From Pseudomonas putida (GTDB lineage: Bacteria; Pseudomonadota; Gammaproteobacteria; Pseudomonadales; Pseudomonadaceae): 64,000 nt of DNA. The notes beneath the pieces were generated by a model. The model saw only the letters and a list, made by a program, of their open reading frames with translations, was not told the origin of the DNA and ran no database searches. Shown here one piece after another: positions 1-19,973 of this stretch (the first letter of the stretch is position 1; every line of letters starts with the position of its first letter). A program made the translations under genes and the position numbers. Location of the stretch: contig NZ_CP016634.1 of the NCBI RefSeq assembly GCF_002741075.1, positions 3,502,001-3,566,000 of the forward strand. The letters are read 5' to 3'.

Positions 1-371
1 TCGCGTTCTTCAATGGCATGCAGGAAGAAGCGAGCATAGACAGCCACCTTACGTTTACCGTCGAGGAACGCTTTTATATATTCCCTTGAGGCCGCGGCTG
101 GGGAATGCACATAACCCACGTGAGGATATTGGTTACGCGACCGGCACAATTCAATAGCCTCAGCAGAGGCATCCAGGCACAGCATGTCGAAACCGTAGGC
201 AGCAAAAAAACTGCTATCTCGGCCATTACCGCAGCCAAACTCGATAATGCCGTCAACCTCAGTGAATTCGTTGATGGCAAATGCAGCAAACTGTGAAGGA
301 TAGGCGGGAGCGCTTTTTCTACGGTTACTGTAGAACCTGTCCCAATAATTTGATTCTTCTAAAAGGCTCAT
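1..371 (-). CDS. SAM-dependent class I methyltransferase, 3' end outside window
   Basis: An open frame runs from an ATG at 371 to the window edge with no stop, so only about 123 N-terminal residues are seen. The protein starts MSLLEESNYWDRFY and carries IEFGCGNGRDSSFF at about residues 40-53. This is the glycine-rich SAM-binding motif I of class I methyltransferases, followed by an acidic residue in LCLDAS after beta-2. A good ribosome site, GGGAG, lies six bases before the ATG. The gene follows the sugar operon on the same strand, 102 bases after the SDR stop, so it may O- or N-methylate the sugar or the glycan. The substrate cannot be told from sequence. The annotation as a methyltransferase is firm; the operon membership is inferred. 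Confidence 0.8.
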   Translation of the reverse strand, partial: MSLLEESNYWDRFYSNRRKSAPAYPSQFAAFAINEFTEVDGIIEFGCGNGRDSSFFAAYGFDMLCLDASAEAIELCRSRNQYPHVGYVHSPAAASREYIKAFLDGKRKVAVYARFFLHAIEER

Positions 372-473
372 TGCGTACTCCCAAACAATCACTGCTCAAT
401 CACAGTGCCCTTGCTGCATACATAACAGCATCGGTAAAAATAGAGATCTTGTCGGCGCTATTGCCAGGCCGAA

Positions 474-1316
474 TCACCAGACACTACGACCGCCATCCAT
501 CACCAGGTTGCAGCCATTCATGTAAAGAGAAGCATCAGCGCACAAGAACGCGATAGCTCCACGATATTCATCGGCATTGGCCATACGCCCGGCGGGAATC
601 AACTGACGCAGCTTGCTGACAAACACATCATCCTGTCCGGCATAAACACCTCCCGGGGATAATGCATTGCAACGCACCCCCTGCTCGCACCAGTACGTCG
701 CCAAGTATTTGGTCAAGCCAATCAAGCCATGCTTGACGACCGAGTAGGTCACCGGTTTGACAGGCTGCTGCTCCGGTTCACGTCCTTCAACGCGGTACAA
801 ACGCTGATCTGGCGCAATCACCCCAAGGTCCGACGATATATTGACGATCACGCCTTTGCCTTGCAGGGCCATCTGGTGGCCAAAGATCTTGGCGCAGTTG
901 AAGGCACCTCCCAACCCAACATCCAGATCTTGTTGCCACTGATCCCAGGGGAACGCTTCAAGGCGAGAAAAATTCTTGCCTGCGCCATCCTCCACCTTGG
1001 GGTTGCGGGCAGCATTGTTGATCAGGATGTCGATGTGGCGATGCTCGGCCAACACCCGGTCGCGAACCGTCTCCAACGATGGCAAGGAGGTGATGTCCGT
1101 CACATACACCTGCGCGTCGACACCACACTCATCCAGCAGCCGCTCCCGGCTACGCTGCAAACCTGCCTCGTTGACATCGAGCAGGATCGGCAAGCCTCCC
1201 AATCCCGCCACGGCCGCGGCATGCTGATAACCCAGCAAGCCACCTCCTCCCGTTATGATCGCGACTCGACCACTCAGGTCGAACAACTGCTGCATTGAAG
1301 AGTGATGTTCAGCCAT
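474..1316 (-). CDS. PtmA-like short-chain dehydrogenase/reductase of the sugar operon
   Basis: This 280-residue SDR reduces or oxidises a sugar intermediate with NAD(P). Near the N-terminus is a TGGGGLLG dinucleotide-binding loop, then NNAARN in the position of NNAG, and the catalytic YSVVK. The stretch NALSPGGV and the C-terminal DGG resemble PtmA-type SDRs of flagellin nonulosonate and aminosugar pathways; this is recalled similarity, not a search. I chose the ATG at 1316, which overlaps the stop of the upstream dehydrogenase gene by 8 bases. An in-frame extension to 1367 would add 17 residues that look non-native. In Campylobacter, PtmA works with the Gfo/Idh-type PtmF, and a Gfo/Idh-type gene is the immediate upstream neighbour here. 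The exact substrate is unknown. Confidence 0.85.
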   Translation of the reverse strand: MAEHHSSMQQLFDLSGRVAIITGGGGLLGYQHAAAVAGLGGLPILLDVNEAGLQRSRERLLDECGVDAQVYVTDITSLPSLETVRDRVLAEHRHIDILINNAARNPKVEDGAGKNFSRLEAFPWDQWQQDLDVGLGGAFNCAKIFGHQMALQGKGVIVNISSDLGVIAPDQRLYRVEGREPEQQPVKPVTYSVVKHGLIGLTKYLATYWCEQGVRCNALSPGGVYAGQDDVFVSKLRQLIPAGRMANADEYRGAIAFLCADASLYMNGCNLVMDGGRSVW

Positions 1317-2367
1317 AAGTAACGATCTCCTCCAGCTCCACCCGCGCACCGCGATGCAATGACTCACGAGCGGCTAACGATAGGCGCAGGCTTTGCAGGC
1401 CATCGAACAGGGTGACTTGTGGTTGCGCCTGCCCCCGCAGGCACTCCAGGAAGTGCTTAGCCTGGTCCAAGAACATATCGTTGCGCACAAAGCCTTCGAA
1501 GCTGTTGGATTCAACCTGCTCGCCAACAGCGTTGTAGACCGCCAATCGGGTGTTGATCAGATCCAGCTCGGCAACGCCCGCATCACCAATGATCTTGAAG
1601 GTACGCACAGGGGGACGCTGAATGAAATCCTGATGCAAGTGAATCGGGAAACTGCCTCGGTCCCCGGAGTAATGCATGAGTGACGTCGCGGTGTCCTCGA
1701 CATCGATCTCCAGATTACTGAGTTGCCCACCCACCGTAAGGATGTTGCGCGGCAATCCGAAGAACCAATAGATCAAGTCCATTTCATGGATTTGCGAAAG
1801 GATCACACCGCCGCCCTGATCAGCCCTGGCCGCATACATCTGGCGATAATCCTCATAGCGGTGCCAGTTGGGCAGATACTCTCCGATTTCTGCGCTGACG
1901 CGGATGATATTGCCGAAGAACCCCTCATCCAGCAGCGACTTGATTCGCAGAAGGCCCGGGTGGAAACGGAAGTTGTAGCCCACGTAAAAGAGCATTTGCT
2001 TCTGAGCCACCAAGGCCATCAGCTCTTCGATACCTTGCAGATCACTGGCCAGCGGTTTCTCCATGAACACCGCTACATTGGCCTTTGCGCAGGCCAGGGC
2101 AATTGGAACGTGCAAGGAATTCGGGTTGCAGATATAGGCTGCATCAGGCTGGCACGCCAAAGCGCTGTCGAGATCATCATGGACGATTACGCCGTAGTCC
2201 GCTTCCAGATCGGCGCCCTCTTCCACGGTCAGATTATCCCGTAGCTTGATTCGCTGCCGACGCACGCGAAATGCATGAACTTCCAGTTCCTCGCCGAGCA
2301 CACTACGCAAGTTACGTAGATGGCGTTGCCCAATACCACCCAGCCCACAAAAAAGAATTCGCACCAT
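1309..2367 (-). CDS. Gfo/Idh/MocA family sugar dehydrogenase
   Basis: The 352-residue protein begins with a Rossmann fold (MVRILFCGLGGIGQRHLRNL), and about residue 100 has the family's EKP signature in VFMEKPLA. The C-terminal half is the mixed alpha/beta substrate domain. Family members oxidise or reduce a hydroxyl or keto group of a free, phosphorylated or nucleotide-linked sugar with NAD(P). The gene lies 14 bases after the sugar-isomerase-like gene and overlaps the SDR gene by 8 bases, so it is translationally coupled within the operon. It is comparable to PtmF of Campylobacter. Which sugar it uses is not visible in the sequence. Confidence 0.87.
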   Translation of the reverse strand: MVRILFCGLGGIGQRHLRNLRSVLGEELEVHAFRVRRQRIKLRDNLTVEEGADLEADYGVIVHDDLDSALACQPDAAYICNPNSLHVPIALACAKANVAVFMEKPLASDLQGIEELMALVAQKQMLFYVGYNFRFHPGLLRIKSLLDEGFFGNIIRVSAEIGEYLPNWHRYEDYRQMYAARADQGGGVILSQIHEMDLIYWFFGLPRNILTVGGQLSNLEIDVEDTATSLMHYSGDRGSFPIHLHQDFIQRPPVRTFKIIGDAGVAELDLINTRLAVYNAVGEQVESNSFEGFVRNDMFLDQAKHFLECLRGQAQPQVTLFDGLQSLRLSLAARESLHRGARVELEEIVTYG

Positions 2368-2381
2368 GCCCTTGCACTCAC

Positions 2382-3257
2382 TTAAACCAGACGGTTACCA
2401 CGCAACCACTCGGCTGCCAGCTCACTCATTTCCCGTAACCAGACGGACTCCTCTCCCGCCACGCCCCGCGCAACCTGAAGCACAAAATCGCCGCGGTAAT
2501 CGAAGCGAATCAACTGCTCCCGCAAGCTGGCAAAATCGGTATCGCCTTGTCCCAACGGCACGGTGCTGCTGCCCAAGCGACGATCCTTGATATGAAAACT
2601 GCCAACCCGCTCACCGTAGGCTGCAAATTCGTCAGCCGGTGCATAACCCAACGAAGCGCTGTTCCCGGCGTCATAGTTAACCTTGACCAACGGATGATCC
2701 AGATCTTGCAGCAGCTGGCGGAAGGACTCGGGAGCCAAGTCGGTTTCCAGATGCAATTCCACCGCGCAGTCTTGCGCCAACGGCAAGAGGTGACGCAGGT
2801 AGTCAATGACCTGCGTCTGCTCCTGCGCAGAGGTGATTCGCGAATGGTCCACAAAGGGCAGCACAATGCGCCCTACCCCCATCTGCGGACAGATGCCAAT
2901 CAACCAGCGCAGTTTCTCAAGACGTTCCTGTAGTTCTTGCTCAGTGCAGCGCAGCAAAGGGAGGTCCATGAAATAATCGGCGCAGATCGACACAACCGAT
3001 ACTCCCCGGGCAGCCAAGCACCCCATCAACTCATGACGACCTTCAGGGGTTTCCAAGGGGTTGTCGCCCACGCCATACACATCGAAGATCCATTCGATGC
3101 CTCGCAGACCGATGGCCGCCGCCTGCTCGATTTCCTCGCGCCACTGACCGCGCGGAAATGACTGGAAGCGCCCGTCCTGCGGTGCGACCAAGCGCCCCTG
3201 CATGGTGTAGAGGCCCGCCTGCGCGTACTGCTTAAGGTAGTCTTCGGACATGCTCAT
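2382..3257 (-). CDS. Sugar phosphate isomerase/epimerase-like TIM-barrel protein
   Basis: The protein has 291 residues and the pattern of the xylose-isomerase-like (AP endonuclease 2) TIM-barrel superfamily. Metal-ligand segments are visible as ELHLETD (about residue 170), VNYDAGN (about 195) and FHIKDRR (about 223), the usual Glu/Asp/His set for a divalent metal. The ATG at 3257 overlaps the stop of the upstream gene in an ATGA, which supports this start; a second in-frame ATG lies two codons on. It probably isomerises or epimerises a sugar intermediate of the operon. A second TIM-barrel of this superfamily is fused to NeuB further upstream, so two distinct aldose-ketose or epimerisation steps may exist. 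Confidence 0.82.
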   Translation of the reverse strand: MSMSEDYLKQYAQAGLYTMQGRLVAPQDGRFQSFPRGQWREEIEQAAAIGLRGIEWIFDVYGVGDNPLETPEGRHELMGCLAARGVSVVSICADYFMDLPLLRCTEQELQERLEKLRWLIGICPQMGVGRIVLPFVDHSRITSAQEQTQVIDYLRHLLPLAQDCAVELHLETDLAPESFRQLLQDLDHPLVKVNYDAGNSASLGYAPADEFAAYGERVGSFHIKDRRLGSSTVPLGQGDTDFASLREQLIRFDYRGDFVLQVARGVAGEESVWLREMSELAAEWLRGNRLV

Positions 3258-5044
3258 TCATCCACCAGCGGAATCAACATATTGGCTTTGAGTTCTTCAC
3301 GGTCCAAGAATGGGAACAGGTCTTCCAACGGGCTGGAAACCATCTTCCCGTTTTCGCCAATACGAGAGGTGACTCGCGGCCCAATCGCTTGATCAGGCTC
3401 AACCATGACTTCACACAGCACTGGGCCTGGTGTATCCAGGGCTTGTCGGATGACATTGGCCAGATCCGACTGCTCGCTAACACGCAATACAGGCAAGCCA
3501 AAGACTTCAGCCAAGGCGCCGATATCCGGCAACGTCAAGCCAGAGACCGGATCACAGCCAATGGTCTGCTTGAAGTAACCCGACTGGGACGCACGGATAG
3601 ACGCATATCCATTGTTATTGAGAATGAAATACTTGATCGGGAGTTGCAGGCGCCGAACCACTTCCAGTTCCTGGATGTTCATGACGAAGCCACCATCGCC
3701 GTCCACGGAAATCGTGCGGCGCTTGCCCCCGCCAATGCAGCCGCCAATCGAGGCTGGCAATCCATAGCCCATCGCCCCCAAACCACCTGTGGCCACCGCT
3801 CTTTGTCCACGTTTGAGCTTGGCCGAGATCCAGAACGTATCTATCGACGCGCCAGAACTGCCAGGAATGATCATGTCATCCTCGTCCAAGGCCTCGCAGA
3901 GCATGTCAGTGAAGACATAGCTGTTCACAAAGCCCTGCTTTTTGCGGTACTCATCCAGCACTACCGGATAGCGGGTTTTCCACTCGGTGCAGCGCTCACG
4001 CCAAGCGTTAAAGTCAAAACGATGCGCCCGAGTCAGCTCAAGCAAACCGACGATGAAATCCTTGGCGTCGCACACGAAGGATTGATCGGGCATATCCCCG
4101 AGCTTAGCGATTTCCGCCGGATCAATGTCCACCACGACGACTGTTGCAGCGCGTGCGAACTGACTACGGTCGAAGCCAGTAATGGAGAAGTCCATACGAC
4201 AACCAATTGCAATTACCACGTCGGCATTCTGGACTGTGAAGTTGGCGCCGCGGGACGCCACGGTGCCGCAGCGACCAAAGTAGAGCGGGTGATCGTACTC
4301 AAGCAGATCAGCTCCGATCCAGGTCGTCATCGTTGGTATGCCCAGGTGCTCGATCAGCTCGCGCATCGAGGCCTGGGCACCGGCACCATGTATACCATTG
4401 CCGACCAGCAGTACCGGACGGTGGGCGCCCTGCAGACGTTGAGCCAACTTTTCCAACGCCGAAGCCTGTGGCAATGCCGGCAGTACATGGTCGTCGGGGA
4501 CATAGCCTTGCAACTGCTCTGGGTCGATTTCCGTCGCCTGGACATCCAGCGGGATATCGATCCAGGCTGGCCCCTTGCGGCCGTTGAGCATCAAGTACAG
4601 GGCTTTTTCCAATTCATAGCGGACCTGCTGAGGATCCGACAGGCACACGGCATACTTGGTGACCGAAGAAACCATGCTGACGATGTCGAGCTCCTGGGTG
4701 CCGAGTTGACGTAATCCGGTCTCACCTTTCAGGTCCGCGCGCTTTACCTGACCGGAGACAACCATCATCGGCGTCGACTCGAACCAGGCACCGGCCAAAC
4801 CGGTAATGGCATTGGTGGCGCCAGGACCGGAGGTCACCAGGCAGGCGCCAAAGTGTCCACTGGTACGCGCATATCCTTCAGCCGCAATGGCGGCTCCCTG
4901 TTCATGCAACATGCTCACCGCTTGCAGACGCGGTTGGCGCAACAGGGCATTGTTCAGATGCATGGCCCCGCCACCCGGCAGGAAGAACACGTGCTCAACA
5001 CCCTGACGGGCAATGAACTCAAAAACGAAGTCGGCTACGCGCAT
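3254..5044 (-). CDS. Thiamine-diphosphate enzyme of the acetolactate synthase family, YerE-like candidate
   Basis: The 596-residue protein has the three-domain acetolactate synthase layout. The catalytic Glu of the pyrimidine domain is at residue 48 (LHEQGAA), SGPGATNA follows, and the ThDP/Mg motif GDGGF begins at about residue 450 and ends in NNNGY. Genuine biosynthetic acetolactate synthase is not expected in a glycan cluster. In Yersinia, the ThDP flavoenzyme YerE transfers an acetyl unit from pyruvate to CDP-4-keto-3,6-dideoxyglucose to start the branched sugar yersiniose. The same operon encodes RfbF, RfbG and RfbH, which make exactly that acceptor, so an equivalent role is a reasonable inference. 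It ends in an ATGA overlap with the TIM-barrel gene. Other carboligase substrates remain possible. Confidence 0.85.
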   Translation of the reverse strand: MRVADFVFEFIARQGVEHVFFLPGGGAMHLNNALLRQPRLQAVSMLHEQGAAIAAEGYARTSGHFGACLVTSGPGATNAITGLAGAWFESTPMMVVSGQVKRADLKGETGLRQLGTQELDIVSMVSSVTKYAVCLSDPQQVRYELEKALYLMLNGRKGPAWIDIPLDVQATEIDPEQLQGYVPDDHVLPALPQASALEKLAQRLQGAHRPVLLVGNGIHGAGAQASMRELIEHLGIPTMTTWIGADLLEYDHPLYFGRCGTVASRGANFTVQNADVVIAIGCRMDFSITGFDRSQFARAATVVVVDIDPAEIAKLGDMPDQSFVCDAKDFIVGLLELTRAHRFDFNAWRERCTEWKTRYPVVLDEYRKKQGFVNSYVFTDMLCEALDEDDMIIPGSSGASIDTFWISAKLKRGQRAVATGGLGAMGYGLPASIGGCIGGGKRRTISVDGDGGFVMNIQELEVVRRLQLPIKYFILNNNGYASIRASQSGYFKQTIGCDPVSGLTLPDIGALAEVFGLPVLRVSEQSDLANVIRQALDTPGPVLCEVMVEPDQAIGPRVTSRIGENGKMVSSPLEDLFPFLDREELKANMLIPLVDE

Positions 5045-5048
5045 GTGA

Positions 5049-6257
5049 TTAGACCGTCTGAAGATTCAACGAATGGTGGGCGACACGATCAGCAGGTACG
5101 GCATAGAGCACCAAATCCCAACCCTCGGCCAAGTGCTGGCACAGACCGAAGCGATAGCCGTCGTAATAACTGTGCAGTTGCAGAAGGATGCTCCACAGGT
5201 GCGTCTGCTCGTGATAGACGCAAACAGCCAATACAGGGTGCCGCTGAGCGATCAACTGGCGCCCGCCTTCCAGGCACTGGGGTTCGAAGCCTTCGATATC
5301 GATCTTGATGAATGTCGCGGGCGCGATCTGCTTGCTCAGTTCGTCAATCGTGCTCATGCGCACAACTTCCTTACCTGCCCCTACCCGAGCAGCCGCACCG
5401 CAGTCTGCCTCGACCAGGATCTCTCCAACTTGATCGCCCACGGCCAGCGCATGGGCGTAGAAACCTGCGGTCTTCCCTCCCAACTGGGCGAGTGTGGTCT
5501 CAAGCGCGCTGAAGTTCTGCCTGGCAGGTTCGAAGGAATGGATTTCCCGGTGTTTACGACCGCTTTGGATGTAGCCATGAATCGAATCGCCATTGAAGGC
5601 ACCGATGTCGTAGAGCACCTCGTCATCCCGGCGATTGGCATAATGCTCGTTGAAATAGATCGCTCGGGACGAAGCCAAAGGCAACAAGTCATAATTGAGA
5701 AACAGCCGACACTCCACGTGATCGACGAACAAACGCTTGGATTCTTCATCCGTCAGCAGCTCGAACGCCTTTCGTACATCGACCGCCGCCTGAATAACGT
5801 GCTCCGGCAAGTCCAGGCTGTAGTAAGGGAGAAACTTTTCTGGCATGAGCCATGCCAGATGCCCGAACAAGGCAATGCGCTCAAAGCCTAAAGCCCGCAG
5901 AGGAGCCAAACGATCAGCCATGCGGTCACTGGCCTCACCACACCAGATGGTGGTGATAACGGCAGGCAAGCTGAAATGATCCCGCCTAGCCAATTGTGCA
6001 GGGCTCATCACCTCGATGCCCATGATCGATGTGCCCCACAGTGCAGGGTTGTTGTCGATGAACGCTACCGGTGCCTGCCCCAACTCCAGCAACACCGAAA
6101 CGACCCTGCGCCCCAGATGGCCGGCGCCAAACAGGACAAACGGCTGATCGAAATCCCCGATGATATCCAAGAGCGTCTGCTGCTGACGCTTGCGAACCGA
6201 CTCCAGCGGCTCACTCAACAACCGCCCCAGCCGTTCGGATAACGAATGATCACCCAT
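5049..6257 (-). CDS. FkbM family methyltransferase with N-terminal nucleotide-binding-like domain
   Basis: The protein has 402 residues. About residues 40-130 form a Rossmann-like segment with FGAGHLGRRV and FIDNNP. Residues 200-390 are the FkbM-type SAM methyltransferase, with LYDIGAFNGDS as motif I, HSFEPA as the acidic beta-2 motif and FIKIDIEGFE. FkbM domains usually O-methylate sugars or polyketides. The gene overlaps the NeuB-fusion gene by 8 bases and stops 4 bases before the ThDP-enzyme gene. With the class I methyltransferase at the window edge, the island has two methylation candidates. The role of the N-terminal domain is not clear; similar fusions occur in surface-glycan loci. Confidence 0.85.
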   Translation of the reverse strand: MGDHSLSERLGRLLSEPLESVRKRQQQTLLDIIGDFDQPFVLFGAGHLGRRVVSVLLELGQAPVAFIDNNPALWGTSIMGIEVMSPAQLARRDHFSLPAVITTIWCGEASDRMADRLAPLRALGFERIALFGHLAWLMPEKFLPYYSLDLPEHVIQAAVDVRKAFELLTDEESKRLFVDHVECRLFLNYDLLPLASSRAIYFNEHYANRRDDEVLYDIGAFNGDSIHGYIQSGRKHREIHSFEPARQNFSALETTLAQLGGKTAGFYAHALAVGDQVGEILVEADCGAAARVGAGKEVVRMSTIDELSKQIAPATFIKIDIEGFEPQCLEGGRQLIAQRHPVLAVCVYHEQTHLWSILLQLHSYYDGYRFGLCQHLAEGWDLVLYAVPADRVAHHSLNLQTV

Positions 6258-8166
6258 GGGACGCCTCCTTACTCAAAGCGCTCAAGAACTTCAGCGCCGA
6301 CCAGAAACCTGCGCCATGATCCTTGTGGCCCTGCCATACCTCAGGAATGAAACTCACCTGCGGATGGGCCTTGATCTTCGCCCAAGCCTGCGGCCAATCG
6401 ATGTCCCCGGTGCCCATCAGCACGCCCTCGCCATTGGTGCCCTTGGCATCGGCCACATGCAGGTGCGCCGAGTACGGCAACAGCAGCGCCAGCGCCTCCT
6501 GGAAGTCGAGTCCGAAGTGGAAACAGGTCATCTGCAGGTGCGAAAGGTCCAGGCACAAGCGCAGGCCATGCTCACGGGCCTGGGCCGCCAATTCCTCGGG
6601 CATCATGAAGATGTTCTGGTGACGCTGGCCGCCAAAGTGCCAAGGGAAAGGCGCCATGTTCTGTGGGATGAGTTCGGTGCCGCTGAAGTCGATCCGCGCG
6701 CAGGACTCATAGAAGCGCTCGTACAGCTCGGGGCGCATGGCCAGCGGGCGCGGTGCGTCGGCCGAGAAACCGCCGATGTTGGCGACGATCAGGCGAGCAT
6801 CGGCATTGGGGAAGAACTCGCCCATCTGCAGTGTGGCGTCCACCACACGTTGTAGGTTGTCGATGGAGCGCTGACGGTAGGCCAGGTCATCAGCGACCAG
6901 ATCCAGCAGCTCGCTGTTCTCGAACAACTCCGGTGCATGCACCACCAAGCGCGAACATTCGACCGGCGCGAGGAAAGGCTGAGGCTTGAGGCTCAGGTCA
7001 CGGTACGAGAGGTGGAACTCGAACAGGTCCGGCTGGATGCGTCGGCGGTAACCGAGAAAATCGTGATAACGCACCGGCACGCCCCAGCGAATGGGCAGCT
7101 GGAACGCCAGTTTTTCCTCGGCCTGTTGCTCTTCGAGATCGCTCTCGAACAGGAAGTCACCCTGGGCGATATCACGCTGGGCCGGCTTGCCGAGCAGCTC
7201 CGCCAGGCGGTACGGGGCCAGGCCCTGGCCGGGGCTGGCGATGCGCAGCATATCCTGTGTCAGGACACTGCCACGGGCGATGTCTCGCGAGGCGATCACG
7301 CTCTTGCCGAGGTTCTCGCGGTTGAGCAACTCGCCTTGGCTGGCATGGCGACCTGGCCCTTGCCACGGTAGGGCCAATTCCAACTGGCGGATGCCTTCGA
7401 CCAGTTGGCGGAACTCGGTCGGCTCCAGGCTGGCCAGGTGATCCGGGCCTTCCATGTTGCGGTCCAGGGTGATGTGGCGTTCCACCAGCTTGGCCCCCAA
7501 GGCCACGGCTCCCAGGGTAATGGCGATACCGCGTTCATGACCGGAATACCCCACCAGGCCGTGCAGCTCCTGCAAACGACGCAGGTAGCCAAGCTGGATA
7601 TCACTCTCCGGTGCCGGGTAGGCACTGTTGCAATGCAGCAGCGCAAACGGCGTACCCAGCGCATTGAGCTGCTCGACGGCACGAATGATCTCGTGCTCGA
7701 AGGACATGCCTGTGGACAGGATCAGCGGCTTGCCCAGGCTCGCGGCCTTGGCGATCAGGTAAGGGTTGCACAGGTCGGCCGAGGCGATCTTCAGGGCCGC
7801 CACGTCGAATGACGCTAAGGCATCGACACTGGGTTCGTCCCACGGCGTGCACAGGTAGGTAATGCCCCTCTGCGCACAGTACTCACGCACCTGGCGATGC
7901 TCGTCGAGACTCAGCTCGACTTTGTCCAGCAGGTCCTGGATGTACTCCACGCCCAAGTCTTCGGCACGCGATCCATCGGCCTTGCGGCGATAGAGTGCTT
8001 CGCGATTGCGCAACTGGAACTTGACGCAGTCGGCACCCGAGTCGATGGCCGCATCGACGAGCTGGCAGGCCAACTCCAAGGAGCCGTTGTGGTTGTTACC
8101 CACTTCGGCGATGACGTAGACGCGCTCACCGCCAAGCGGGATGCCGTCGAGATAAAGGGTGGTCAT
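6250..8166 (-). CDS. NeuB-type sugar acid synthase fused to a SAF domain and a C-terminal TIM-barrel isomerase
   Basis: Residues 1-280 are a NeuB-type domain that in known family members condenses phosphoenolpyruvate with a hexosamine to form a nonulosonic acid. Visible marks are IAEVGNNHNG, VKFQ, LSTGMSF, LHCNSAYPA and GYSGHERG. Residues 285-350 form an antifreeze-like SAF domain (SVIASRDIARG). From about residue 358 the protein continues into a xylose-isomerase-like TIM barrel with LCLDLSHLQMT and HLHVADAKG. Simple NeuB proteins are about 340-360 residues, so this is a fusion. I chose the ATG at 8166, which gives an ATGA overlap with the kinase gene; an ATG at 8184 would add six residues. 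No CMP-sialate synthetase is seen in the window, so the product may not be a standard sialic acid. Confidence 0.88.
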   Translation of the reverse strand: MTTLYLDGIPLGGERVYVIAEVGNNHNGSLELACQLVDAAIDSGADCVKFQLRNREALYRRKADGSRAEDLGVEYIQDLLDKVELSLDEHRQVREYCAQRGITYLCTPWDEPSVDALASFDVAALKIASADLCNPYLIAKAASLGKPLILSTGMSFEHEIIRAVEQLNALGTPFALLHCNSAYPAPESDIQLGYLRRLQELHGLVGYSGHERGIAITLGAVALGAKLVERHITLDRNMEGPDHLASLEPTEFRQLVEGIRQLELALPWQGPGRHASQGELLNRENLGKSVIASRDIARGSVLTQDMLRIASPGQGLAPYRLAELLGKPAQRDIAQGDFLFESDLEEQQAEEKLAFQLPIRWGVPVRYHDFLGYRRRIQPDLFEFHLSYRDLSLKPQPFLAPVECSRLVVHAPELFENSELLDLVADDLAYRQRSIDNLQRVVDATLQMGEFFPNADARLIVANIGGFSADAPRPLAMRPELYERFYESCARIDFSGTELIPQNMAPFPWHFGGQRHQNIFMMPEELAAQAREHGLRLCLDLSHLQMTCFHFGLDFQEALALLLPYSAHLHVADAKGTNGEGVLMGTGDIDWPQAWAKIKAHPQVSFIPEVWQGHKDHGAGFWSALKFLSALSKEASHG

Positions 8167-11541: not shown

Positions 11542-12611
11542 CGGTTTTCGCCTTCATGGTCCGCGATCTGCGCGCGGCAAAATTGCTGCATGTCCTGGCC
11601 TTCTCGCCAGGCGCAATGCCATTGGAGGGTTCGCTGCAAGGCCTGCTCCAGGCCCCAGCTCGGACGCCAGCCCAAGCGCTGGCGTGCCATGGAAGAGTCG
11701 AGGGTCAAAAGACCTGCCTCATGGGGCTGCGCGGATGGTTCGACCGCCCAGCGCGCCTCGCCAGGCCAAAGCCGGGCCATGGTCTGTACCACCTCGCCAA
11801 CTGTTGCGGTGCCTTCGCTGTCGGGGCCGAAGTTCCAGGCCTGGGCGACCGCCTGCCCCTGTTCGATCAGCGCCTGGGCCAGCAGCAGGTACCCCTGCAG
11901 CGGGTCGAGCACGTGCTGCCAAGGGCGCACCGCCCCCGGATAACGCAAGGTCAACGACTGCTCGGCATCCCAGGCACGCAGGATGTCCGGAAGCAAACGG
12001 TCGGCGGACCAGTCGCCACCTCCGATCACATTGCCCGCCCGAGCGGTGGCCAGCGCCACACCTTGGTCTTTCAGGAGGGACTCGCGCCAGGACGCGCAAA
12101 GCAACTCGACGCATGCCTTGCTGCTGCTATAGGGGTCATGTCCACCCAGGGCATCCTGCTCGCGATAGGGCCACAACCACTCGCGGTTCTCGTAGCACTT
12201 GTCGGTGGTCACCACCAGGACCGCGCGAACCGAATCACACTGGCGCACGGCCTCCAGCACATTTACCGTGCCCATCACATTGGTGGCATAGGTTTGTGCA
12301 GGCGTGCGATAGGACTCGCGCACCAACGGCTGTGCCGCCAGGTGCAGGACGATCTCCGGACGGAACGCCACCAGGCTGCTGGCGAGCCTGTCGGCATCGC
12401 AGATGTCGGCGAATTCGCCCGAAACCCGCTCGGCCAGCCGGGCCTGATCGTGGAGTGCGGGTGTGGTCTGGGGCGCCAGCGAATAGCCATACACCTCAGC
12501 GCCCAGTTCGCTGAGCCACAACGCTAGCCAGCCGCCTTTGAAGCCGCTATGACCGGTCAGGAAGACCCTGCGGCCTGACCAGAAGCTGCGGCTTACGGCC
12601 ATACTCGCCAT
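11538..12611 (-). CDS. rfbG: CDP-glucose 4,6-dehydratase
   Basis: This 357-residue extended SDR converts CDP-glucose to CDP-4-keto-6-deoxyglucose. The N-terminus has the NAD motif [12 protein letters not shown], which is typical of CDP-glucose 4,6-dehydratases. Further in are TTDKCYE, the catalytic YSSSKACVE and [13 protein letters not shown] placed the start at 12611, because GGAGAGG lies four bases before that ATG; an ATG at 12602 is a lesser alternative. Upstream in-frame sequence to 12749 looks non-native. The gene overlaps rfbF by 19 bases and rfbH by 4. Confidence 0.94.
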
Positions 12612-13363
12612 TGTGCCTCTCCGGATTTCCAGCGCTCTTCCAAGTAGTTGCGATCGCGCAGCGTGTCCATGGCCTGCCAGAAGCCGCGATGGGTATGACT
12701 CATCAACTGGCCGTCCTGCGCCAGGGCGCGCATCGGCTCGTATTCCCACGTGGTGGCGTCACCATCGATGTAATCGAAGATGCCGGGCTCCAGAACGAAG
12801 AAGCCACCATTGATCCACCCGCCGTCGCCCAGTGGCTTTTCCTGGAAGCCCTGGACCTGTTCGCCACGCACATCGAGCGCCCCGTAGCGGCCTGGCGGCT
12901 GGACTGCCGTAACGGTGGATAGCTTGCCGTGGTTTTTGTGGAAGTCGACCAGTGCGCGGATATCGACATTGGCCACGCCGTCACCGTAGGTGAGACAGAA
13001 GGTGTCGTCGCCGACATAGTCACGCACGCGCTTGATTCGCCCACCGGTGGCGGTATTTTCACCGGTATCCACCAACGTCACGCGCCAGGGCTCGGCATTG
13101 CGGTTATGGATATGCATGCGGTTTTCCGACATGTCGAAGGTCACATCGGACATGTGCAGGAAGTAATTGGCGAAGTACTCCTTGATCACGTAGCCCTTGT
13201 AGCCCAGGCAGATCACGAAATCGTTGATGCCGTAATGGGAGTAGATCTTCATGATGTGCCAGATGATCGGTTTGCCGCCGATCTCGATCATCGGCTTTGG
13301 CCGCAAGTGGGACTCTTCACTGATGCGTGTGCCCAGGCCACCGGCCAAAATGACTGTTTTCAT
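12593..13363 (-). CDS. rfbF: Glucose-1-phosphate cytidylyltransferase
   Basis: This 256-residue enzyme makes CDP-glucose from glucose 1-phosphate and CTP, the first step of CDP-linked 3,6-dideoxysugar synthesis. It begins MKTVILAGGLGTRISEES and has RPKPMIEIGGKP, TYGDGVANVD with the metal Asp, and FQEKP, all expected for RfbF. It is the first gene of the sugar operon, downstream of a terminator and a sigma-54-like promoter. The order rfbF-rfbG-rfbH is the same as in Salmonella and Yersinia O-antigen loci. Confidence 0.95.
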   Translation of the reverse strand: MKTVILAGGLGTRISEESHLRPKPMIEIGGKPIIWHIMKIYSHYGINDFVICLGYKGYVIKEYFANYFLHMSDVTFDMSENRMHIHNRNAEPWRVTLVDTGENTATGGRIKRVRDYVGDDTFCLTYGDGVANVDIRALVDFHKNHGKLSTVTAVQPPGRYGALDVRGEQVQGFQEKPLGDGGWINGGFFVLEPGIFDYIDGDATTWEYEPMRALAQDGQLMSHTHRGFWQAMDTLRDRNYLEERWKSGEAQWRVWP

Positions 13364-13520: not shown

Positions 13521-13538
13521 CTTCTGTCTCTGCCGAGA

Positions 13539-16331
13539 TCAACTCAGCTCACGCAACCATTCCAGCTGGATCGCCTGTCCTGGCATGGCCGAACGCGATT
13601 GCTCGACCCCCTCTGGCGCATCTGCCGCCACTCGACGATTGAACGCCGCAGGCCAGCGCGCAACCAGGTACTCGCGCGCCTGATCACTCACTACCGGCAC
13701 TACCGGGCAGAGCACCTTGGCGTCCGGCGCCATGAGTATCAACAGGCCGGCCTGAGCGACCTGCTGGCACAAATCGATGTCCGCCCCGAGGTTCGTGGAC
13801 AAGCCGCCACAATGCTCGAAGACATCCCGACGGACCATCAAGGCGTTGCCCGAGACAGCTTGGGCACCACGGACGACGTCCAGCCCCAGGGCCCGCCCAA
13901 ATGCATCGACCGGCAGGCCGAGCCAGCTCGCATGGATACTCTGGTTGTCCAACAGCTCGTAACCGGCGTGACTGATTGCCCCTGCGAGGTCATACATCTG
14001 GCAACCGACGATCCCGACCTCCGGGCGCTGCGCCTGATTGAGCAACGAGCCGATCCACGCCGGCGTCATGACCTGGCAATGAGTACCGAACAACACCAGG
14101 TAGTCGCCCTGCGCCTGGGTTACCGCCAGATTGATCAGCGCCTCATAGGAGGCTGGCTGCTCACTCGTTACCAGACGCACGCGCTTGCCAATTCCCGAAA
14201 CGCTCCCCAACTGTGCGATCAAGTACTCACTGGCATGAGCCTCACTGACCACCAGTACTTCATAACGCGGGTAGCGGGTGCGCTGCACGATGCTGGCCAG
14301 CGAAGCCTTGAGCTGCTCGATATCAGCATCGGCCACCAGCAGAATGCTCACCAACGGCGTCGCCGTATGCCGAAAATCGAGATGCAGGCGCTGCCCAGCC
14401 CCTTCGCTGATCGCCCCCTGGTAGCCCAGTTGCGTCATGTGGCGGTTGAGGGTAGCCAAAGCATCCGTCATCATCGCCTCCCCAGCCATCCGTCCGATCA
14501 CCAGGTACTCGTCCAGGTGCGCCAGGCCACCGAGCCCCTGAGCCTCGACCAGGCGCAGCAGCAAGTCGAATTCCAGTGCATGACGATAGGTTTCGCTGTA
14601 CCCCCCCAGGGCCACCACCGTTTCACGACGCATCAACCAGTGCCGCGACATCAGGTCGGGACGGCTACGCAACAGATCGAAATCAGCGCCAGGGCGCAAG
14701 ATACCGACCAACCGACCAGCGGTGTCCCGCTGAACCTCATTACCACAAATGGCTTGGCATCCCGGCGCTTCGACCAGCTCTACCCGCAAGCGCAGCAAGC
14801 CACCGGCGGTCAACTCGTCGCCCGCCTGCAGCAACAGCATCCACTCGCTGGACAGCTGACGCACTACCTGGTTCAGGTGCGAAACCACGTTCGCGGCGGT
14901 GACTTTGATGAAGTGCAAGGTATCGCGCGCCGTGGTGATGGCGGGCAGTGCGCCAACCTTCAGCACGACAAGACGGAAATCACGCACACCGCTAGCCAGG
15001 ATGCTGTCGAACGTCCGCTGCAGGCCGGCGTTATCATCCTCTAGGTCGAGGACAATGAACGCCAGTTGCGGCTCCTTGCGCTTGGCAAGGTGCAGCATGA
15101 TACGCTTTCTGCCTGCTGCATCCGGAGTGGCGTCGGCCAGGGCCTGAAGCACCCGCCCAGAGGGCGTAGCAGTCAGTTGCTGGCCTAGGTCGATACCCTT
15201 CACACGGTCCAAGCGCGCCAGCCAGTCGTTAAGCTCGCTCACCTGATCCCCCATGTCCTCCCCCACCAGCGAGTCCGCCAGGCGGCGGCACACGACGGGG
15301 TCGAAAAGGCTCAATACAAGCGCTTGCCAATAGCGCTCCTGAAGACTTTTATCGGTATCGTTGGGGTGCACGTGCAGCAAGTCACGCTGGCGGACCCAGG
15401 TGCCCTCCACGGCATTGATGTGCGTTTGCCCGACCGGCCAGGCATGGATGAAGAACTCAAGACCCGACAACCGGCGGAACAAGGGAGCGTTGTAGTACGG
15501 CAGCTCGACGAACTGCTGGGGCTCGAAACGGCGCTCGGGATCACCGACCACGCTGCCCCATGCCGAGGTGAACAGCAACGGCAACTCATCACCGCCATAG
15601 GTCGCGTGAATGAACTCTCGCAGGATCACAAAGCCCTGGTCATCGCACCACAACGACTTCTGTTCGTGATCCCATTGAACCAGCGCCTGCGTTACATGAG
15701 CCAATGTTTCTTCGCGTGCCACCGAGCCCATGACCTGGGCCGGGCATTCGCTCACCACCGCCGTATGTTCCAGCACCTTGACCGAGCCGTGCAGCAACAA
15801 GGCGCACGACAACCCGACCAACCAGCCCTCGCCAGACAACTCAGCGGGAACGCTGCCCAGCACCGCCCTGAGCGCCTCGACACGAACCACAGCGCGCCAT
15901 GCCTGCTGACCGCATTCGGCGAAGCGGCGAATACGCTGGAGCGGGCCATCGGTACTATCACCCTGGTAGGCGTCACCGACCTTGTGATAGTCCACAACGC
16001 TGTTCCCCGGCCGGTACCCCAGCACATACCCAAGCGCCGACTGTTCACTTGGATGCGCCTGCAACCACGCCACGGCGGCTTCCAGTGCATCAGGCAGGAT
16101 GAAATCGGTGTCCTTGGCCAACAGGACATACGGCGTGTCGACCTGCTCGAGCGCGCACTGCAAGCTGACCGACCATGGCTGGTCCGGCGCGGCTTCGAGC
16201 AGCGGCCACTCACAGGCCTGTTCGGCATAATACGCTGCGGCGCGCGCTCGATAAGCAGGGTCATTGCCGCCCAGCAATACAACGCTGACAGCGCGTTGCA
16301 ATGACACGTCTGCTACTGCTTGTTCATTCAT
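13539..16331 (-). CDS. Three-module flagellin-type glycosyltransferase (Fgt2-like)
   Basis: The 930-residue protein looks like three GT-A/family-2 modules in a row. Module 1 is about residues 10-250 and contains the only clear DxD (DTD at 74-76). Module 2 is about 422-640, with AGD at 503-505 where DxD should be. Module 3 is about 658-880, with GTH at 749-751. Modules 2 and 3 may therefore be inactive or ion-independent. The gene is in the position of fgt2-type genes in the flagellin glycosylation islands of plant-associated Pseudomonas, beside a larger glycosyltransferase and the flagellar genes. No membrane segment or signal peptide is evident, so it should act in the cytoplasm, consistent with modification of flagellin before export. 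Acceptor and donor are unproved. Confidence 0.85.
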   Translation of the reverse strand: MNEQAVADVSLQRAVSVVLLGGNDPAYRARAAAYYAEQACEWPLLEAAPDQPWSVSLQCALEQVDTPYVLLAKDTDFILPDALEAAVAWLQAHPSEQSALGYVLGYRPGNSVVDYHKVGDAYQGDSTDGPLQRIRRFAECGQQAWRAVVRVEALRAVLGSVPAELSGEGWLVGLSCALLLHGSVKVLEHTAVVSECPAQVMGSVAREETLAHVTQALVQWDHEQKSLWCDDQGFVILREFIHATYGGDELPLLFTSAWGSVVGDPERRFEPQQFVELPYYNAPLFRRLSGLEFFIHAWPVGQTHINAVEGTWVRQRDLLHVHPNDTDKSLQERYWQALVLSLFDPVVCRRLADSLVGEDMGDQVSELNDWLARLDRVKGIDLGQQLTATPSGRVLQALADATPDAAGRKRIMLHLAKRKEPQLAFIVLDLEDDNAGLQRTFDSILASGVRDFRLVVLKVGALPAITTARDTLHFIKVTAANVVSHLNQVVRQLSSEWMLLLQAGDELTAGGLLRLRVELVEAPGCQAICGNEVQRDTAGRLVGILRPGADFDLLRSRPDLMSRHWLMRRETVVALGGYSETYRHALEFDLLLRLVEAQGLGGLAHLDEYLVIGRMAGEAMMTDALATLNRHMTQLGYQGAISEGAGQRLHLDFRHTATPLVSILLVADADIEQLKASLASIVQRTRYPRYEVLVVSEAHASEYLIAQLGSVSGIGKRVRLVTSEQPASYEALINLAVTQAQGDYLVLFGTHCQVMTPAWIGSLLNQAQRPEVGIVGCQMYDLAGAISHAGYELLDNQSIHASWLGLPVDAFGRALGLDVVRGAQAVSGNALMVRRDVFEHCGGLSTNLGADIDLCQQVAQAGLLILMAPDAKVLCPVVPVVSDQAREYLVARWPAAFNRRVAADAPEGVEQSRSAMPGQAIQLEWLRELS

Positions 16332-16394
16332 GGCGCACCCATCATTCCGGTTATTCTCTTCGCCCTGGCAGCGTGGCTCGCCACCACCGGCCCA

Positions 16395-19300
16395 TCAATC
16401 AGCCAACCAACCGCTGGCCCAATGTTGCAGGTTGTGTTCGGTCAGTACGTAATCGCGCAATACCGCTTCACGCAATGCATCACCCTGCCGGTAGCTGGCC
16501 GCAGGGTCGGCCAGGTGCATGCGAATCGCCTCCAGCCATTCCTCGGCACTGTTGGTAACCACCCGCGTACAGGGCAGATAACCCTGGTACGCCTTGGTGT
16601 CGGTGCAAATCACTGGAAAACCGCAGGCACCATACTCCAGCAAACGCAGGTTGCTCTTGCAGTCATTGAACAGGTTGATCTCAAGCGGCGCCAAGGCGAG
16701 GTCCAGATCAAGGCTGGCCAGCTTCTGCGGATAGCTCGATAACGCCACGCCCTTGTGGAACTCCTTGATGTGGGGACGCAGCAAATCGGGACACATACCG
16801 AAGAACACCCAGTCGACCTCGTCCGCCAACGCCTTCACGACATCGACGATCAGCTCAAGGTCGCCACGGTGACTCGTGCCCCCCGCCCAACCCACACGAG
16901 GCCGCACCGAGGTTTGCCGACGACTGCGCAACCCACGCCAAAGCGAGGCGGCGAGCATGTTCGGCACAACGCGGATATCGTCATGCATGCCCACCAGCGC
17001 ATCGGCCAGAGGCTGGGTGGACACGACCACACGATCACACAGGTCGATCGCCCGAGCGACCAGTTCACGCATGTTGCTCGGCATGTTGCGCGCGTGCGCA
17101 TTGTTCTTCGGCACATCGAGGATGTAGTCGTCCAGCTCGTATACCCAACGCGCGCTGGAAAAACGCCTGATCCGCTCAAGCTCCTCGATCGACCGGGTGG
17201 TGTAACGGTACTGCACCACAACGACATCCGGTTTTTCCCGCTCCAGCTCGATCACACCTGGCGCACCGTAGTTGAGCTTGCCCTGAATCCAGCCCAGGCG
17301 CTCCAGCTCGCTGAACGGTTGCGTGACCCGGTAATGCCCCACGGCCGAAGTGTTCAGCGGCAAGGCAAGAACCGATGGCAGAACACGACTGACAAACGGA
17401 TCCCACCCCGTGCGCATGCCAGGTTCGAGAATGAAGCTGGCGCCCGTCAGGCTCAGGTTGCGGTTGTAGGCCGGGTCCCAGGCAACTCGCGAGAGCCAGC
17501 GGGCATAGAAATCGTCCTCATCATGTTCGCGCCATTGGACCGACGCGCTCGACTCTCCCGCTGCAAACCGTATCAGGGAGGCGAACGGTGTCCAGACCAC
17601 GAGATAACCCTGGTCACGAACACGCAGGCAGAAATCGGCGTCAAACAGGCTCTCCTGCAATAAGGCACAGTCCAGACCGTCGAGTTCTTCGAAGACCGAG
17701 CGACGCACCAACAGGCAGTCCAGGCTGACAGCGCTCCAATTCTGTACCAACTGAAGACGGCTCATGTAGCCATTGGTGGTGGCTGCAAAACCGAGAAACG
17801 GCGAGCCCACCGCCCCGTGCAACCCGAGAACCAAGCCAGCACCGACGACACAGCCATCGTCATTGACCAGACGCGGCCCCACCACTGCCACCTCAGACCG
17901 TTGCGCCTGACGCACCATTTCATCGAGCCATGGGCTGTCGAAGGCCATGCAATTGGCATCGAGCAATAACAGATAGTCACCCCGCGCCAAGGCGCTGGCC
18001 TGGTTCAGCCGAGCACCCTTGCTGCACGCATCGCTCCAGACGATACGCAGCTGGGCACTTTCCAACCGCTCCATCGCCGCCAGCCAGTCGCGTATCGGCG
18101 CAGGCGCCTGATCGGTGGCGATGATCAATATTTCGTAATTGCCATAAGCCGTGTGCTCGAAAATGGATTCGACACAACGGACCAGCGCCAGCAAATCCTC
18201 CCCGGCGTCCACAAGCATGGAAACGCCCGGCAGGGCCTCATGCAGGTACTGCACCCGAGACATCGGGCTTCCATGGACGGGCTGTACCTGCGCCGCGACA
18301 CCCAACCGTTGCAGGTGCGCCTCCAACACTCGCGGCGCCTGCGCCACGCAGACCGGGTCACGCATCCAGTCTTCGTAGGTGTGGCCGCACTGCACCAGTA
18401 GCTCAGCCACATGCTCGACCACATGCAGACCCTTGGCTTCGACCATGCGCCAGAGCACATCATGAGGTGCCAGCAATTCGAACGATTCGACAAACCCGCC
18501 CAACTCCCGCAGGGCAGCGCACTTGAAGCCCAGCAAACGCCCCACATAGGGCAGGCTGCGCATCAGGTCGAGGTTGAAGTCCGGCTTGAACACCGGCACG
18601 CTGGATTCGCGACCATCATAGGCACCCTCATCGACATAGAGACAGAGACGGTCGGTCTGCACGGCCATGCGCTCAGCCATGACGACCAACGCATGGGGGT
18701 GCAGGAGGTCGCCTGGTTGCAGAAGAAAAACCCAGTCGCCACCCTCACCCGCCAACAGACGTTGATTGATCTGCTCGAACCCATGCCCGTGTATCGTCTC
18801 GCGCCGAACCTTTAGCCCTGGGACTTCCGCTACCGACGATCCGGCTACCGTAAAGACCCAGACTTCATCAGGGGCATAAGACTGTACTGCCAGGCTTTCC
18901 AGGGTGGTACGCAGCGCACGCTCATCCGCCTGCGCAGACAAGATCACCGGAACGATGCGTGGCCGGCCCGCCCAGCGTTCCATACGCTTGGGCAGCATGC
19001 GCAATTGCCCGGCTGACAGGCTGCGACACTCCAGCCATTCGGTGTAGACGTCCGCGAAGCTCAGACTTTTGAGACCAACCCGCTGCTGGTAGTTGCTGAT
19101 CTGGCTGACATAGGCCAATTGCAGTTCAAACTCCTGCCAGACCTTGTCGTCGCCTTGTTGATAGTCCTCGATCGTCACGTAACGCACCCAACCGGCAGCC
19201 GGGGCGGGCTCAGCTGCGCGCGCAGCCAACATCTGGGACAACCAGTCGGTCTCATTCTTGAACGCCAATTGCATCGAGGCGTGATGACTGAGCTGGCCAG

Positions 19301-19973
19301 GATGCACGCGCTCCAGACTCAATACATCCTTGAGGCACGCCAAATGGCCCCGACGCAGCAGGCAGACATACAGAGCCAGATCCAGTCGCGCGGCAAAGCC
19401 TTGCCCCTCTTGAACCAAAGCCGCGAGAAACGCTTCGACCTGCTCGCGTCTGAACATTGCATGGCTGATCCCACCAAACAGGTTGGCGACATTACTGGCA
19501 ATCACCTCAAGCAGGTCACCTGCCCGCATCACCGCGTTACCGGGCGAGACCACGCAGTTGATCGCCCGCGACGGCAACAGGCTTTCGTCGGCGTCGCAGA
19601 GCAAGCGCTGGCTGGTCACCATGCTCACGTCAGCACAAGTGGCCATGACCTCGGCCTGGCGCTGGATGCAACCGGCAAGCAATACGTCATCGTCACACAG
19701 GAACTTGATAAGCGACCCAGAACATTGTTCAAGGCAGGCTTGCAGGTTTCGGGCAAAGCCAAGGTGACTGGCATTGCGCAGATAACGTACGGGTGAGCGG
19801 GCATCCTTGGCCAACTGGTCGGTGATTGCCTTTATCTCCTCGCCCGAACTGTCGTCGCAAATGACGATCTCGAGGCTGGGATAGTCCTGACTGATCGCGC
19901 TGGCCAGTGCGCTGCGGAAGAATTCAGCATTGAAAGCCGGGATGGCGATGCTGACGAAAGGTTGTTCGTTCAC
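16395..19973 (-). CDS. Four-module flagellin-type glycosyltransferase (Fgt1/FgtA-like)
   Basis: The 1192-residue protein has three GT-A-like modules and a C-terminal GT-B-like module. Module 1 begins FVSIAIPAFNAEFF and has DDD at 94-96. Module 2 (about 338-560) has PGD at 420-422 in the DxD position. Module 3 (about 583-830) has DAN at 672-674. The GT-B-like part runs from about 865 to the end, with RVGWAGGTSHRGDLELI typical of family-1/4 enzymes. The start is GTG at 19973 with AAGG eight bases before it. The size and position next to flgL match Fgt1 of P. syringae and FgtA-type proteins. It would build several linkages of a flagellin O-glycan on one polypeptide. The modular reading is from motif spacing only. 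Confidence 0.86.
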   Translation of the reverse strand: MNEQPFVSIAIPAFNAEFFRSALASAISQDYPSLEIVICDDSSGEEIKAITDQLAKDARSPVRYLRNASHLGFARNLQACLEQCSGSLIKFLCDDDVLLAGCIQRQAEVMATCADVSMVTSQRLLCDADESLLPSRAINCVVSPGNAVMRAGDLLEVIASNVANLFGGISHAMFRREQVEAFLAALVQEGQGFAARLDLALYVCLLRRGHLACLKDVLSLERVHPGQLSHHASMQLAFKNETDWLSQMLAARAAEPAPAAGWVRYVTIEDYQQGDDKVWQEFELQLAYVSQISNYQQRVGLKSLSFADVYTEWLECRSLSAGQLRMLPKRMERWAGRPRIVPVILSAQADERALRTTLESLAVQSYAPDEVWVFTVAGSSVAEVPGLKVRRETIHGHGFEQINQRLLAGEGGDWVFLLQPGDLLHPHALVVMAERMAVQTDRLCLYVDEGAYDGRESSVPVFKPDFNLDLMRSLPYVGRLLGFKCAALRELGGFVESFELLAPHDVLWRMVEAKGLHVVEHVAELLVQCGHTYEDWMRDPVCVAQAPRVLEAHLQRLGVAAQVQPVHGSPMSRVQYLHEALPGVSMLVDAGEDLLALVRCVESIFEHTAYGNYEILIIATDQAPAPIRDWLAAMERLESAQLRIVWSDACSKGARLNQASALARGDYLLLLDANCMAFDSPWLDEMVRQAQRSEVAVVGPRLVNDDGCVVGAGLVLGLHGAVGSPFLGFAATTNGYMSRLQLVQNWSAVSLDCLLVRRSVFEELDGLDCALLQESLFDADFCLRVRDQGYLVVWTPFASLIRFAAGESSASVQWREHDEDDFYARWLSRVAWDPAYNRNLSLTGASFILEPGMRTGWDPFVSRVLPSVLALPLNTSAVGHYRVTQPFSELERLGWIQGKLNYGAPGVIELEREKPDVVVVQYRYTTRSIEELERIRRFSSARWVYELDDYILDVPKNNAHARNMPSNMRELVARAIDLCDRVVVSTQPLADALVGMHDDIRVVPNMLAASLWRGLRSRRQTSVRPRVGWAGGTSHRGDLELIVDVVKALADEVDWVFFGMCPDLLRPHIKEFHKGVALSSYPQKLASLDLDLALAPLEINLFNDCKSNLRLLEYGACGFPVICTDTKAYQGYLPCTRVVTNSAEEWLEAIRMHLADPAASYRQGDALREAVLRDYVLTEHNLQHWASGWLAD

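Follow-up and report, generated by a model that had tools for sequence, protein, structure and literature searches.

A flagellar island of Pseudomonas putida with a predicted pathway joining NeuB and RfbFGH products into one C4-branched sugar

Introduction

Why should a flagellar gene island hold, side by side, the enzymes for a 3,6-dideoxysugar and a synthase of the sialic acid type? This question is raised by a 64 kb stretch of the 5.85 Mb genome of Pseudomonas putida (C2:3502001-3566000; "the window" below means this whole stretch), where an island next to flgL encodes RfbF, RfbG and RfbH (together RfbFGH), a sugar kinase and nucleotidyltransferase, a NeuB-type synthase and an enzyme that depends on thiamine diphosphate (ThDP). 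An earlier note on this DNA took these genes for three separate modules. The gene functions that it named stood, and every listed gene was found on the minus strand, with RfbF, RfbG and RfbH above their curated cut-offs; the separateness of the modules did not stand. We read them instead as the acceptor supply, the donor supply and the joining ThDP enzyme of one pathway. On balance, we think that the product of the island is a single large C4-branched sugar destined for flagellin, in which a keto acid from NeuB would be joined to the RfbFGH deoxysugar by the ThDP enzyme. Judged from the sequence, this is probably a new flagellin sugar.

The proposed pathway and its genes

The reactions of the pathway, the chain length of its donor and its target are all predictions. 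RfbF, RfbG and RfbH would convert glucose-1-phosphate into cytidine diphosphate (CDP)-3,6-dideoxy-4-keto-glucose, the ketone acceptor. An HddA/HddC-like pair and an epimerase-like TIM domain would deliver an aldose to NeuB, which would turn it, with phosphoenolpyruvate, into the donor, a 3-deoxy-2-ulosonic acid. This donor would be decarboxylated by the YerE/JanthE-like ThDP enzyme, which would add the remaining chain to C4 of the CDP-sugar. A NAD epimerase-family protein encoded near fliC would probably reduce or epimerise the new branch, the FkbM, methyltransferase, SDR, TIM and Gfo proteins may modify precursor or product, and giant glycosyltransferases would transfer the sugar onto FliC. 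NeuB enzymes make alpha-keto acids, the compounds that YerE-like enzymes consume. Since RfbFGH makes the acceptor of YerE, the two seemingly unrelated modules would belong together, and since the ThDP enzyme would join them, we regard the 3,6-dideoxysugar as a probable intermediate. The central genes are:

12593..13363, minus strand: RfbF, glucose-1-phosphate cytidylyltransferase (TIGR02623, 472.8 bits, cut-off 300)
11538..12749, minus strand: RfbG, CDP-glucose 4,6-dehydratase (TIGR02622, 494.5 bits, cut-off 278); the true start probably lies further in, near 12611
10219..11541, minus strand: RfbH, 3-dehydratase (E1) with conserved iron-sulphur cysteines (NF011936, 731.8 bits, cut-off 423)
9524..10294, minus strand: HddC-like sugar-1-phosphate nucleotidyltransferase (NTP_transferase; HddC model 122.4 bits, below the cut-off of 300); the true start is probably 10219
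8163..9527, minus strand: N-terminal CBS domain and HddA-like GHMP sugar kinase (HddA model 226.6 bits, below the cut-off of 600; top PDB match 4n3o)
6250..8184, minus strand: NeuB-type synthase with an epimerase-like TIM barrel, 644 amino acids (NeuB 258.8 bits, SAF, AP_endonuc_2)
3254..5044, minus strand: YerE/JanthE-like ThDP ligase, the putative joining enzyme (JanthE 427 bits, top acetolactate synthase 302 bits; trees)

Recurrence in the genus

Among 298 genomes of the same genus, a close relative of the ThDP enzyme (E up to 1e-85) was found in 26, with RfbFGH nearby in all 26 and NeuB nearby in 24. The NeuB proteins of these 24 are of three kinds: 17 are fused to a TIM barrel as in the window, three to a cupin and four are plain (four proteins of the latter seven were scanned), and the window NeuB shares 27-30% identity with representatives of the two other kinds. 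The earlier note had proposed a search for the gene order across genomes, and the order recurs: in 17 of 17 genomes with a full-length TIM-fused NeuB, RfbF-RfbG-RfbH-nucleotidyltransferase-GHMP kinase-NeuB is followed by the ThDP gene, directly or about one gene later. This recurrence of the block from RfbF to ThDP exceeds chance. In 14 of the 17 genomes there are flagellar genes no more than 20 kb from the fused NeuB, and in the other three they are 33-45 kb away; they are also in view at 7/7 genus loci whose NeuB is of another kind. Each of the 26 ThDP genomes has a single copy of RfbH, so the island is their sole source of RfbH.

RfbH itself occurs in 35 of the 298 genomes, nine of which lack the close ThDP relative. 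Around RfbH in these nine loci we found no NeuB and no flagellar genes within 20 kb; seven have a more distant ThDP enzyme (31-34%) directly after RfbH and two have none.

The exchange with NeuA

The second line of evidence comes from loci found through the C-terminal domain of the fused NeuB (the best 80 of 314 relatives), which we divided by NeuB identity into near (at least 64%, 50 loci) and far (at most 54%, 30 loci). Over all 80, a ThDP gene is present in 46/50 near and 0/30 far loci and NeuA in 1/50 near and 22/30 far loci; the two never occur together, and three near and eight far loci have neither. The 49 loci with at least 8 kb on either side (35 near, 14 far) give the same picture. 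ThDP is found in 34/35 near and 0/14 far loci, RfbH in 34/34 loci with ThDP and 0/15 without it, and NeuA in 0/34 with ThDP and 14/15 without it; these loci are related, not independent, and Fisher's p values overstate the contrast. The fifteenth locus without ThDP, L149, has an open reading frame (ORF) that resembles another cytidylyltransferase by eye. The sole well-flanked near locus without ThDP, L108, has a NeuA-like gene upstream.

The far-type NeuA genes match PseF, below its cut-off. In the genome of the window, the CTP_transf_3 search gave two matches, a strong one of 215 bits that we take to be KdsB and another of 25 bits, and no NeuA beyond these two; 12 of 17 island genomes likewise had no NeuA beyond the KdsB-like match. 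With no NeuA near the fused NeuB there is no visible cytidine monophosphate (CMP) route for its product, and the ThDP enzyme would take the role of NeuA. Together with the recurrence in the genus, this exchange supports NeuB as the source of the donor.

One set of these loci is of interest in its own right. L125-L154 carry the CBS-GHMP kinase, the HddC-like transferase, the TIM-fused NeuB, often a GmhA-like isomerase, and NeuA; the set is widespread (Bradyrhizobium, Bacteroidetes, Chlorobium and other hosts) and perhaps makes an undescribed heptose-based ulosonic acid.

The ThDP enzyme

The nearest solved relative of the ThDP protein is JanthE (8rph, 427 bits), and the comparison was made with JanthE, not with YerE itself. 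The protein scores 378.9 bits against the acetolactate synthase model TIGR00118, below the cut-off of 538. An acetolactate synthase was rejected as its identity: the best one trails JanthE by 125 bits, and the eight ThDP paralogs of the same genome fall elsewhere, split from the island protein at 100/100 in one tree. The sequence firmly places the protein as YerE-like. It carries HEQGA, whose Glu we take to be the catalytic one, and GDGG, which contains the ThDP motif GDG.

A wider tree of 65 ThDP proteins, whose rows were picked by their neighbouring genes, shows grouping and not frequency. The eight own paralogs stay outside (100/98), the seven ThDP proteins of NeuB-less genus loci form one clade (100/100) and the eight aldolase-linked ones another (100/100). 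Within the clade of NeuB-linked proteins the kind of NeuB switches while some NeuB persists; L122, of the TIM-fused kind, stands beside the cupin kind.

YerE is described as decarboxylating pyruvate and adding the two-carbon unit to CDP-3,6-dideoxy-4-keto-glucose, and ErwE as preferring longer hydroxy-keto acids (excerpts of PMC12247030). JanthE is known as a biocatalyst, and its physiological substrates are reported as unidentified (excerpts of PMC12188165).

Relatives of JanthE show that other keto-acid sources can stand at such loci. In the Herbaspirillum family (343 genomes, 11 with a strong JanthE match, ten of these 11 loci examined), six JanthE orthologs (76-90% identity) all follow RfbF, RfbG and RfbH and are accompanied by an aldolase and an acetaldehyde dehydrogenase (Pfam on two loci). 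A similar arrangement of a JanthE ortholog, a pyruvate-type aldolase and an acetaldehyde dehydrogenase is found in the NeuB-less genus genome G247. In L172, L173 and L175 a plain NeuB comes immediately after the ThDP gene, with RfbFGH in L172 and L173; L175 ends at a contig edge. L174 has RfbF, RfbH and an altronate dehydratase, an enzyme whose product is 2-keto-3-deoxygluconate. We also observed a second ThDP enzyme of 567 amino acids directly before the JanthE ortholog of one RfbFGH-aldolase locus (L188:10834-12537, minus strand).

From these loci a wider reading can be drawn, to which we give somewhat less than even credence: RfbFGH would be one fixed supply of the ketone acceptor, to which each YerE-like locus adds its own keto-acid source (none, an aldolase, an altronate dehydratase or one of the three NeuB kinds). 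In the island, a heptose-type aldose would then lead through NeuB to a flagellar branched sugar with about 15 carbons, in which a C6 sugar bears a C9 chain, perhaps with a different electron donor for RfbH. Caryophyllose, with 12 carbons, is smaller than this.

The substrate of NeuB

The window NeuB scores 312.7 bits against TIGR03569, below the cut-off of 399.65. In the Neisseria enzyme, Arg314 helps to place the N-acetyl group of N-acetylmannosamine (excerpts of PMC6795526). At the aligned position the window protein has Ser, as do 79 of the 80 loci (the other has a gap), which makes an N-acetylated substrate less likely. The TIM domain (model with a pLDDT of 85.7) resembles ketose 3-epimerases, with a TM score of about 0.67 to the best, and the cupin of the second NeuB kind weakly matches lyxose isomerase; both could prepare an aldose. 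In L185-L187 a cupin-fused NeuB with a weak D-lyxose isomerase match is followed by ThDP, and L185 also has a HAD phosphatase (Pfam); the keto acid there is perhaps phosphorylated.

The kinase is present in 49/49 and the nucleotidyltransferase in 45/49 well-flanked loci. In the PDB, the closest matches of both are heptose enzymes, the top match of the nucleotidyltransferase being a protein of the 6-deoxy-mannoheptose pathway, and a GmhA-like isomerase occurs in 4/35 near and 9/14 far loci. Our best guess for the substrate is a heptose-derived aldose. A complete HddA/HddC heptose pathway was rejected, as both proteins fall below their curated cut-offs, and is kept as a hint.

The flagellar setting and the accessory genes

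All genes of the island are tightly packed or overlapping on the minus strand, according to ORF calls and profile searches. From flgL leftwards the order is two giant glycosyltransferases, rfbF, rfbG, rfbH, nucleotidyltransferase, CBS-GHMP kinase and NeuB-TIM barrel, and then the FkbM methyltransferase, ThDP enzyme, TIM barrel, Gfo/Idh, SDR and a methyltransferase cut by the edge. The genes around the central block are:

20047..21615, minus strand: flgL, the flagellar boundary of the island (NF009361, 824.4 bits, cut-off 407; Flagellin_N)
16395..19973, minus strand: giant glycosyltransferase, 1192 amino acids (Glycos_transf_2 in two stretches, Glyco_trans_1_2)
13539..16331, minus strand: giant glycosyltransferase, 930 amino acids (Glycos_transf_2)
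5049..6257, minus strand: FkbM methyltransferase with a weak NeuD-like match at its N-terminus (profile search)
2382..3257, minus strand: second TIM barrel, sugar epimerase/isomerase-like (AP_endonuc_2, 85.8 bits)
1309..2367, minus strand: Gfo/Idh oxidoreductase (Pfam profile search)
474..1367, minus strand: SDR oxidoreductase (Pfam profile search); the true start is probably near 1316
3..392, minus strand: methyltransferase running on past position 1 (profile search)

The earlier note had placed the island beside flgL and two giant glycosyltransferases, which agrees with these calls, and had proposed to look for fliC beyond position 1. There the methyltransferase remainder is followed by a LicD-like gene, a third giant glycosyltransferase (1169 amino acids), the NAD epimerase-family gene and a FabH-like gene, and then by fliC, flaG, fliD and fleQ. 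The fliC gene (C2:3493888-3494739) shares the strand of the island and begins 7.3 kb past position 1; the flagellar location, from flgL through the island to fliC, is firm. The O-antigen context that the note held up as contrary evidence did not appear: we found no Wzx, Wzy or ligase among the ten neighbouring ORFs tested beyond position 1, and an O-antigen locus was rejected. The note had also counted two TIM barrels; both domains exist, but one of them makes up the C-terminal half of NeuB.

The NAD epimerase-family gene is found in 17/17 islands, 6/6 JanthE-ortholog loci and 8/9 other genus ThDP loci and in 29/35 near and 1/14 far loci, and in 0/9 RfbH-only loci above 90 bits. This distribution would fit a ketoreductase of the branch, a step that excerpts of a 2016 paper report as uncharacterised for yersiniose (PMC4753412). 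The SDR and TIM genes occur in 13/14 and 11/14 far, NeuA-type loci, which makes a role in the ulosonic half more likely for them. Several islands, e.g., G107 and G125, lack the TIM, Gfo and SDR genes. An inositol-type IolD/IolE/IolG set was rejected on this absence and on its scores (Gfo 102 bits to IolG, cut-off 355; TIM 25 bits to IolE).

Other features of the region may be recorded here. Compared with genome G193 the island is a mosaic: identity is 93% for flgL, 89 and 81% for the glycosyltransferases, 92% for RfbG and 82% for the nucleotidyltransferase, and 100% for RfbH and 99-100% from NeuB to SDR. G+C is 54.5-58% across roughly positions 1-6000 and about 60-64% past there. At 57245-61284 of the window there are five tRNA genes (four Arg, one Ser), and three consecutive Arg genes share one anticodon.

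Discussion

Several observations weigh against a single pathway from NeuB to a branched flagellin sugar. The contrast between near and far loci is mainly one old exchange, plus L108. All 40 NeuB-linked ThDP proteins group together, but weakly (85/67). Five of the 17 island genomes have an extra NeuA-type match (68 to 133 bits); in each of these, at least one such match has a second NeuB, an unfused one, at a distance of up to about 5 kb. In G017 a ThDP gene and RfbFGH stand beside an ABC transporter, with NeuB and aldolase absent from view. The ThDP enzyme needs its donor in the open keto form, but ulosonic acids are mostly closed rings. Finally, RfbH requires an electron-delivering reductase, E3, and a BenC-like E3-type reductase was found in 0/17 islands and 0/80 of the loci with a fused NeuB.

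The last point can be followed further. E3-type reductases were also found in 0/8 other genus ThDP loci and 0/10 loci of the JanthE search, whereas a BenC-like one is present in 9/9 RfbH-only genus loci and in G247. The RfbH cysteines 196, 254, 256 and 264, presumed iron-sulphur ligands, are kept in 44/44 other RfbH rows. The genome of the window has 11 FAD_binding_6 matches; among the five proteins scanned, two are BenC and GbcB by cut-off and three fall below all cut-offs shown. Either a general reductase serves RfbH or its chemistry differs. Cys269 was tried as a marker of the loci without E3 and the pattern did not hold. Residue 260 is Cys in 10/10 proteins beside an E3-type reductase (L194-L202, L188) and in 0/35 rows without one (the window counted twice); among the loci with a fused NeuB it is Cys in 2/38 (L098, L116). 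It is a possible mark of two modes of electron supply.

Another explanation is that the island makes two sugars for one flagellar glycan, one a plain CDP-3,6-dideoxyhexose from RfbFGH and the epimerase-family protein, the other a nonulosonic acid from the NeuB part. Such a pair has been predicted in a Clostridium flagellar island (excerpts of PMC13317340), and the far loci, which have NeuA and no RfbH, show that the NeuB part can work alone. Yet the window's genome and 12 of 17 island genomes offer no NeuA beyond the KdsB-like match, ThDP is present in 17/17 islands, and RfbH and ThDP are gained and lost jointly; we regard two sugars as unlikely.

Ordinary yersiniose, with the ThDP enzyme taking pyruvate and NeuB having another role in the island, is quite unlikely in our view. 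YerE does use pyruvate with the same acceptor (PMC12247030, in part) and a yersiniose cluster has been proposed for the O-antigen of Pseudomonas WCS417 (excerpts of PMC4509608), but the ThDP proteins beside RfbFGH in the seven NeuB-less genus loci belong to another clade, and NeuB persists near the window-type clade despite the switches of its kind.

That the branched sugar goes to lipopolysaccharide or capsule rather than flagellin is very unlikely given the flagellar genes near the fused NeuB in all 17 genomes and in view at the seven loci with other NeuB kinds, and the absence of export genes in the ten neighbouring ORFs tested, although YerE-type sugars are known from lipopolysaccharide (PMC12247030, in part). 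Synechococcus and Cyanobium records L105 and L106 hold parts of the block (kinase, fused NeuB, RfbH- or RfbG-like genes, and ThDP in L106), and such cyanobacteria are not known to have flagella, so the sugar need not be flagellar everywhere.

How does the single pathway that we favour relate to known systems? The yersiniose pathway (ddhA-D, yerE and yerF of Yersinia and Pseudomonas O-antigens) likewise obtains its acceptor from RfbFGH and has a ThDP enzyme of the YerE-like kind (excerpts of PMC12247030 and PMC4509608); the island differs in its NeuB, its flagellar place, the lack of a nearby E3-type reductase and the clade of its ThDP enzyme. The Janthinobacterium-type JanthE loci share the nearest solved ThDP enzyme, RfbFGH directly before it and an epimerase-family gene nearby, but there the keto-acid source is the aldolase with acetaldehyde dehydrogenase and not NeuB. 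Erwiniose and caryophyllose synthesis (ErwE, MMAR_2332) likewise uses YerE-like enzymes, with longer hydroxylated keto-acid donors, but is described for lipopolysaccharide, and the words NeuB, sialic and nonulosonic gave no match in the text of PMC12247030. Pathways for flagellar nonulosonic acids (pseudaminic and legionaminic acid) share a NeuB-type synthase in a flagellar island, but no NeuA is near the fused NeuB in the 34 well-flanked ThDP loci and the Arg314 position is Ser. In other Pseudomonas flagellin glycosylation islands, too, the space between flgL and fliC is taken up by sugar genes and genes for large glycosyltransferases; their glycans are mainly rhamnose- and viosamine-based in a 2014 review, whose excerpts hold no C4-branched sugar (PMC3958885). 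RfbFGH in flagellar islands has already been predicted for Clostridium, for paratose or beside pseudaminic acid (excerpts of PMC13317340). RfbFGH and NeuB are therefore known separately in flagellar islands and predicted jointly in a Clostridium. Among the literature matches listed, none described their union by a YerE-like ligase, a YerE-like enzyme supplied by NeuB, or flagellin with a C4-branched sugar.

If this pathway is true, sialic-acid-type and branched-deoxysugar synthesis, which normally end apart, become one route, and a NeuB without NeuA gains a purpose. Natural donors can then be predicted for YerE-like ligases, JanthE included, which would explain the role in nature of this family of carbon-carbon-joining enzymes. 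From the survey, some 8% of the species sampled in the genus (24/298) may carry such sugars on their flagella, which plants and animals sense.

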